This document shows, one piece after another, positions 62,264-64,000 of a stretch of DNA of 64,000 bases. How positions within the stretch are numbered: position 1 is the first letter of the stretch; every line of letters begins with the position of its first letter. The notes under the pieces are model-generated. The model did not search any database and was not told the origin of the DNA. It was given only the letters and a program-made list of their open reading frames with translations. A program made the translations under genes and the position numbers. Origin of the DNA: Synechococcus sp. RedBA-s (GTDB lineage Bacteria > Cyanobacteriota > Cyanobacteriia > PCC-6307 > Cyanobiaceae); the NCBI RefSeq assembly GCF_024345495.1, contig NZ_JAGQBF010000008.1:1-64000 (forward strand), written 5' to 3'.

Positions 62264-62318
62264 TTCTCAGTTAATGACATGCACCTGGGAAACTGAGAAC
62301 AACGAGTAACAGTTCTCT
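62264..62318. repeat. Inverted repeat and promoter motif before a small gene
   Basis: GTTCTCAGTT (62264-62273) pairs with AACTGAGAAC (62292-62301), a perfect 10-bp stem with an 18-nt loop; GAGAAC pairs again with GTTCTC at 62313-62318. GTAACAGTTCTCT (62307-62319) recurs as GTTACAGTTCTCT before hli. Could be a terminator for the region to the left or an operator; T-tracts are absent. Confidence 0.55.
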
Positions 62319-62348
62319 ACACTAAGGTGGGGAAAAGAGCTTCCATCA

Positions 62349-62576
62349 TTGAACGACCTCCTGGCTGCCGTCAATCTGATCTGTTTTGCGGTCATCGGAG
62401 GGGGAGCCTTTGCGTTGATGAGCCAGAATCTGCGCGGCTCCGCTCAGCTGGCTTCCTCTCAGACAAGTAGTTCCAAGCCTAGGCGCCACCCCGAAGCCCC
62501 CGAGCCCGGCGAGGAGATGTTGTACGTCGACCTCAGCCGGGAGCGGCTAGAAGATCTGTATCAGCAGGCGTCGTAA
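62349..62576 (+). CDS. Small membrane protein, unknown function
   Basis: 75 aa from a TTG. LLAAVNLICFAVIGGGAFALM is a transmembrane helix; a Ser/Pro linker and an ordered end, EEMLYVDLSRERLEDLYQ, follow. Resembles small conserved proteins of marine Synechococcus, but no name is known to me. The repeat-rich region 62264-62318 is directly upstream. Confidence 0.55.
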   Translation: MNDLLAAVNLICFAVIGGGAFALMSQNLRGSAQLASSQTSSSKPRRHPEAPEPGEEMLYVDLSRERLEDLYQQAS

Positions 62577-63056: not shown

Positions 63057-63074
63057 TTTGTAACGGAACGTAAA
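63057..63074 (-). promoter_or_regulatory. HLR1-like RpaB site (small-gene side)
   Basis: On the minus strand TTTACGTTCCGTTACAAA: two 8-mers of the form (G/T)TTACA(T/A)(T/A) spaced by CC, with one mismatch (G for A) in the first. It ends 5 bp before the ATG at 63052, a position where bound RpaB would block transcription or initiation. Confidence 0.55.
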
Positions 63075-63216
63075 GAGTCTGCCTGATCCGTGGCCCCGCC
63101 CGTGGCCTCTGAAGCCAAAGGCTCTTTCCTCGTTGGCCACCTAACCAGGCTCCGCTTGCAGCTGGGGTCATCCAAGGTTGGCACTAGGGCCTGAGCCGCC
63201 CTGCTGGGGTGCAGAA

Positions 63217-63234
63217 GTTACATGCATCTACATT
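63217..63234 (+). promoter_or_regulatory. HLR1-like RpaB site before hli
   Basis: GTTACATGCATCTACATT: half sites GTTACATG and TCTACATT separated by CA, two mismatches from the HLR1 consensus. A -10-like TAATCT lies at 63241-63246 and the hli start is at 63279. HLR1 elements in front of hli genes are the known target of RpaB. Confidence 0.65.
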
Positions 63235-63278
63235 CCGCAATAATCTGTTACAGTTCTCTCATCTCCTGCGATCGCCTC

Positions 63279-63548
63279 ATGGCCCAAGCCACCGCCACAG
63301 CCCCCAGCGCCCTTGATCGCGCCACCATTCGCGGAGCCACAGTCACCACCGAGGAAGGCGGTCGCCTCAATGCCTTCGCCACGGAGCCCCGCATGGAAGT
63401 GGTGGGTGCCGAGCGTGGTTGGGGCTTCCATGAGCGCGCCGAGAAGCTGAATGGCCGCATGGCCATGCTGGGTTTCATTGCACTACTGGCCACCGAATTC
63501 GCCCTGGGTGGTGAGGCCTTCACCCGCGGGCTGCTGGGCATCGGTTGA
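63279..63548 (+). CDS. hli: High-light-inducible protein (Hlip)
   Basis: 89 aa from ATG 63279. The single chlorophyll-binding helix has the CAB motif in [20 protein letters not shown] (ExxNxRxAM). The N-terminal ~50 residues are soluble ([37 protein letters not shown]), longer than in the smallest Hlips. It binds chlorophyll and carotenoid in the thylakoid and protects photosystem II assembly in strong light. Preceded by an HLR1-like site. Confidence 0.93.
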
Positions 63549-64000
63549 ATCAACTGCCGAGATTTGTTCGACACAATCCAAAGAAGATTCTAATGGAAAG
63601 TTCCCTTTCGATCAGCAGAGAGTTCTTTGTCGAAGCCCATTCAAGGGCAATTGACAGCTGCACGGAACTTTAAGACCTCCGCAAAGTCTCCAAATCACTT
63701 CTGAGAGCTTGGCAGCTCCCTGCCCACCCCATTGACTGAGACCCATGCTTTTGCAAGGGTGCTCAGACTTGTGTCGGGCAGTCAGGGCGTCCGCACCGCC
63801 CGGGCGGCGCGGATCAAGCGAGAGTCGCGCATCTCCGCGTCCTGCAACATCTATGGCCCGGCCAGCATCAGCAAGCTTGAAGGCAGCCAGTAGGGACATT
63901 TCTATCTCTACTTTCTTCGCAGTTCGTGGTGAAAGAAATCACTTTGCTTGCATCAAAGTTGGCGACTGCCAGCTGCCCTCGCCGGGCGGCACACAGGCCA
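63549..64000. other. Right end: no certain gene
   Basis: Open frames exist on both strands but none is convincing. Plus: GTG 63759 to TAG 63891-63893, 44 residues ending RESRISASCNIYGPASISKL, which reads like a real protein but lacks a ribosome-binding site. Minus: 63612-63899, antisense to it. The end of the window may cut a further gene. Confidence 0.35.

Follow-up and report, generated by a model that had tools for sequence, protein, structure and literature searches.

A conserved HLR1-like site and linkage to hli mark an orphan 59-amino-acid gene of Synechococcus sp. RedBA-s as a candidate light-stress gene

Genes and HLR1-like sites at the locus

The window (the whole 64,000-nucleotide stretch of DNA that was analysed) is contig C60 of a 2.72-Mb genome. 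Candidate sites were scored, to a maximum of 16, against the published HLR1 consensus KTTACAWW-N2-KTTACAWW as it is given in a passage of PMC13421787. The 59-aa gene (P0001; 62873-63052, minus strand) belongs to an orphan family of the window's taxonomic family and is preceded on its own strand by the HLR1-like site TTTACGTTCCGTTACAAA (63057-63074), which scores 15/16. This site ends 4 bp from the ATG; a preliminary description of the locus had placed it 5 bp from the start codon, a figure that is corrected here. Upstream of the site lie a predicted -10 hexamer, CAGACT (63076-63081, minus strand), the position of which is conserved in aligned relatives, and, across an 18-bp spacer at a -35-like distance, CCACGG (63100-63105, minus strand).

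The divergently oriented hli gene (63279-63548, plus strand) encodes an 89-aa HliA/HliB-like protein. Its HLI/CAB helix is matched by phrog_178 (E 3.2e-14), while PF00504 gives 20.0 bits, below the cut-off of 22.3, and the Psb34 equivalog NF033486 is missed, with 33.8 bits against a cut-off of 45. The product resembles HliA/HliB, as these are described in a passage of PMC9458560, in its HLI helix, its NGRxAM motif and its Psb34-resembling N-terminus, and differs from them in scoring below the Pfam and Psb34 model cut-offs. Upstream of hli, the distal HLR1-like site GTTACATGCATCTACATT (63217-63234, plus strand; 14/16) is followed in 10-bp phase by a proximal half-site pair, GCAATAATCTGTTACAGT (63237-63254, plus strand), and the last half-site of this second pair contains a -10-like TACAGT (63249-63254). 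The hli promoter is thus a row of four half-sites at 10-bp spacing. Both motifs of the preliminary description, TTTACGTTCCGTTACAAA upstream of the 59-aa gene and GTTACATGCATCTACATT upstream of hli, were confirmed in sequence and in position; the pair said to face hli is present at 63217-63234, but it is part of this longer array. In the close relative L052 this four-step array recurs with better half-sites, and the window genome's hli paralogue on contig C11 has three half-sites, TTTACGTTCC GCAACAATGT GTTACAATAA. Just 3' of hli, at 63593-63740 on the plus strand, is a relative of a 60-aa protein encoded on contig C61 (L046:1525-1704); the copy beside hli is broken by an in-frame TAA at 63671-63673, and an HLR1-like site precedes the start of the C61 copy by 9 bp.

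On the other side of the 59-aa gene is orf75 (62349-62576, plus strand), a small protein gene with a TTG start and a hydrophobic N-terminal stretch. Its HLR1-like site, GTAACAGTTCTCTACACT (62306-62323, plus strand), scores 12/16, and the corresponding upstream sites reach at least 12 in 23 of 26 loci. Every one of the 25 orf75 loci that score at least 11 has a TANNNT after the motif; the one remaining locus was dropped for a lower score. Judged by sequence, orf75 is the third gene of the cluster with a conserved HLR1-like site. A paralogue on contig C27 shows the same arrangement.

Frequency of HLR1-like sites in the genome

A search of the whole 2.72-Mb genome with KTTACRN4KTTACA returned a single perfect match, the TTTACGTTCCGTTACAAA site. 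With up to one mismatch there were nine matches, including both reported sites, and eight with the reversed-pattern control. One of the remaining matches lies 27 bp before a short hli on contig C5, another, which falls at the end of a different reading frame, lies 9 bp before the first ATG of the orf75 relative on C27, and a third precedes the 60-aa reading frame on C61 by 9 bp; the other four are inside longer reading frames. Scoring against the full consensus was carried out on both strands of a 464-kb sample made up of the window and 20 stretches of 20 kb (400 kb) from the same genome. This sample contained one site scoring at least 15, three scoring at least 14 and ten scoring at least 13, against one, one and eight in the reversed sequence, and the reported pair accounts for the one site at 15 or above and for two of the three at 14 or above. 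Two sites of at least 13 occurred together in none of 5177 sampled 178-bp windows, taken at an 89-bp step that misses the reported pair itself.

Across the genome as a whole, the motif is thus not enriched over the reversed control at these thresholds, but the copies placed in promoters precede hli and small-protein genes. The preliminary description had made its reading depend on the background frequency of equally good motifs; these proved rare in the genome, and the reading was not refuted. Among 61 genomes of the family, exact TTTACRTTCCGYWACA occurs six times, against once for the reversed control; four of the six occurrences are directly before small-family genes and one is before the C11 hli paralogue.

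Conservation of the promoter of the 59-aa gene

We compared 83 loci, consisting of the best 80 of 140 relatives from named genomes and the three copies in the window genome. After the motif had been seen, the loci were split by N-terminal sequence into branch A (MTVG and like; n = 49) and the rest (n = 34). A score of at least 12 within 45 bp of the ATG was found in 44 of the 49 branch A loci and in 0 of the 34 others, counts that are not independent because the loci are related and branch A was defined with the motif already in view. Judged against other 45-bp stretches of the same locus, 40 of the 49 branch A loci stand out at p < 0.01. On the protein tree, which is built on few columns and leaves many forks unresolved, presence or absence of the motif is explained by 6 changes, where shuffled labels require 24.7. 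The window genome's third copy (L048) and the Prochlorococcus copies are without the site.

Of the 44 branch A loci with the motif, 32 have exactly 4 bp between its end and the ATG. In 33 thinned, motif-aligned sites a -10-like CAGAAT is held in common, with its last T in 32/33 and a G upstream in 31/33. At the -35-like place, 25 of 44 loci have CCRCG, which is present in 2.1% of random 9-mers. In the relatives this CCRCGG-like element lies 17-18 bp from the -10-like CAGAAT and is unlike TTGACA; a similar CCACG also precedes the orf75 promoter. Five branch A loci fall below a score of 12 (L054, L100, L106, L115 and L124), and the last four of these carry a GTAAC...GTTACA form, which reads as an inverted repeat rather than an HLR1.

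Linkage of the small gene to hli

An HLI-type helix is encoded within 800 bp of the small gene at 33 of 49 branch A loci, against 4 of 34 others. The linkage takes two forms: at 29 branch A loci a short hli lies downstream on the same strand as the small gene, and in the window, L052, L076 and L079 a longer hli is divergent from it. The window lineage lacks the downstream hli, and there the link to hli is made by the divergent gene only. The downstream hli genes have sites of their own. Within 100 bp upstream, a score of at least 12 is reached in all 28 measurable cases and of at least 13 in 22 of the 28 (L092, the 29th, was dropped for unread bases), against 0.34% and 0.13%, respectively, of background 100-bp windows. 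In L057, L059, L070 and L073, three or four HLR1 half-sites in succession, spaced by exactly 10 bp, lie between the small gene and the downstream hli.

Predicted structure of the 59-aa protein

Of the 151 genomes of the window's taxonomic family that were searched, 119 encode the 59-aa family, often as two or three copies each. A wider sample of 244 genomes from the phylum gave 23 with a match, every one of them from that taxonomic family. Searched as a single sequence, the 59-aa protein had no match in Pfam, NCBIfam, PHROGs or the sequences of solved structures. A phage origin of the small gene was considered and set aside, with no match in the phage collection and no PHROGs family. The family profile also matched beta-ketoacyl-ACP synthase III (best E 0.027), which we count as chance; this enzyme is absent from the 16 rows of the fold search, and the matched stretch lies inside a much larger protein.

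The AlphaFold2 model of the 59-aa protein (pLDDT 93.7, pTM 0.74) is composed of three helices and a small strand pair. Its best structural match is the crystal structure of Synechocystis CdgR, 8hja, over residues 1-60 (TM 0.75 on the query, Foldseek E 0.068). Compared with 8hja from residue 1, the model gives a Z of 8.3 with 57 residues aligned at an rmsd of 3.6, the next row having a Z of 3.4. For small helical folds, Z values near 8 can be produced by an arrangement that is simply common. The two sequences are 21-23% identical and similar in pattern. When free-standing cyanobacterial relatives of the CdgR N-terminal domain (62-73 aa) were included in the profile, 21 of 51 members of the small family scored above the best shuffled decoy (hhalign Prob 61). 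With the CdgR N-terminal domains alone as the profile, no small-family member rose above the shuffled decoys, and in the reverse search with the small-family profile no CdgR did.

The predicted fold is like that of the N-terminal domain of CdgR/ComFB (Slr1970, Alr3277), and the 59-aa protein is unlike these proteins in being without the ComFB domain; PF10719 is absent from it in Pfam and was found in 0 of the 151 family genomes. Homology between the 59-aa protein and the CdgR/ComFB N-terminal domain is suggested by the model and, in part, by the profile comparison as probable but unproven. CdgR/ComFB binds c-di-GMP and c-di-AMP, as stated in a passage of PMC12313861. As the 59-aa protein has no ComFB domain, it would not be expected to bind these nucleotides.

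Other cyanobacteria have a free-standing family of about 65 aa (L248-L261) that resembles the CdgR N-terminal domain; the one member scanned had no Pfam family over cut-off. None of these 14 relatives has a good HLR1 close to its ATG, so that RpaB control would not be a property of the wider group.

RpaB and the proposed control of the cluster

RpaB is encoded in the window genome, where it scores 395.9 bits with NF045944 against a cut-off of 330. Nine OmpR-type DNA-binding regulators were matched in the genome and three of these were scanned with the RpaB model, which a second regulator, L162 (G000:C39), also passes, with 361.4 bits. According to passages of PMC13421787 and PMC6331805, repressing HLR1 sites lie at -38 to +23 relative to the transcription start, and RpaB is released on a shift to high light. 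If transcription of the 59-aa gene starts, as predicted, 6-8 bases after CAGACT, near 63068-63070, we infer that TTTACGTTCCGTTACAAA would span about -6 to +12. The repressor position proposed in the preliminary description fits the -38 to +23 zone, though relative to a predicted -10 only.

The window genome shares with the RpaB/HLR1 regulon of Synechocystis PCC 6803 and Synechococcus elongatus PCC 7942 the consensus, the predicted position at the core promoter, hli genes as putative targets and the RpaB gene. It differs in that its putative targets include two small protein families without an assigned function and in that its half-sites occur in phased runs of three or four. We consider it probable, from the sequence evidence, that RpaB controls the region as a block of small light-stress genes, repressed in low light and released in high light. 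In low light, RpaB would sit on the HLR1 half-sites over the predicted start of the 59-aa gene, and likewise on the core promoters of hli and orf75, where it would block RNA polymerase; on a shift to high light RpaB would leave, and the 59-aa gene, hli and orf75 would be switched on together.

The product of the 59-aa gene would be part of the high-light response, as a small helical protein that is probably soluble. It probably works alongside HLI proteins, since most close relatives encode it just upstream of a short hli with its own HLR1. The small gene's site is kept in many related species, which makes the gene a good candidate for a new light-stress gene, and the proposal to that effect in the preliminary description gains support from the conserved site at fixed distance, the linkage to hli in two arrangements, the HLR1-like sites of the 28 measurable downstream hli genes and the RpaB gene. 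Control by RpaB on HLR1 is already known; what is new is the small gene, its link to hli and the possible CdgR-type fold. A nameless family can now be placed, for a conserved promoter-based reason, in the light-stress response next to hli. Two further linked candidate targets, the short downstream hli and orf75, are named, and together with a possible structural relative of known biology they mean that a few simple bench tests could give the family its first function. No light-response data on the 59-aa family were found in the literature at the level of titles, abstract openings and passages, though such data may still exist. As a more speculative proposal, which we hold with considerable doubt, picocyanobacteria may have kept or re-used a CdgR-like N-terminal helical domain as a free-standing protein of 57 aa, multiplied to two or three copies per genome, of which one branch would be RpaB-controlled beside hli, as a light-stress adaptor replacing a second-messenger receptor.

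Alternative readings of the conserved site

RpaB may bind these sites with the one before the small gene serving mainly as a landing or nucleation site for the neighbouring hli, the small protein being a housekeeping product. The hli just downstream at 29 branch A loci would suit such an arrangement, as would the persistence of family branches without the site (0/34 with the motif), from which it follows that the small protein can do without light control. In 32 of 44 loci, however, the motif sits a fixed 4 bp from the small gene's own ATG, with a conserved -10-like hexamer upstream of it; the motif is kept where there is no hli within 1500 bp (for example L068, L080 and L083-L085), and the downstream hli genes have separate HLR1-like sites. 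We therefore regard a landing-site role as unlikely, and control of the small gene itself by RpaB as the better reading.

Less likely still is recognition of the small-gene element, as a GTTAC-rich or inverted-repeat site, by a regulator other than RpaB. The four weak branch A loci with the GTAAC...GTTACA inverted repeat point that way, and in the alignment the first half-site is less strictly kept than the second, but in the window and most relatives the half-sites are repeated directly at a spacing of 10 bp, in agreement with the RpaB consensus, and sites of this type also precede hli, the short hli and orf75. The NtcA site is GTA-N8-TAC, and NtcA was rejected as a regulator of the small-gene element, where the spacing would be N10.

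The conserved block could also be an RNA or translation-start element of a short leader, as it falls within the predicted leader and within a few bases of the ATG, where no ribosome-binding sequence is obvious. This is highly improbable given that the motif is found at other distances elsewhere. It stands 22-28 bp upstream of orf75 and about 20-45 bp upstream of hli genes, and even at the small gene it is 17-18 bp from the ATG in L074, L075, L077, L078 and L081.

Chance matches in AT-richer intergenic DNA, which would agree with the near-equal number of near-matches in the genome-wide reversed control, are scarcely credible beside two sites of at least 14 within 178 bp, with one other such site in 464 kb, and conservation across loci with varied flanks; at the small-gene site chance is refuted by the conservation footprint across relatives (44/49 branch A loci).
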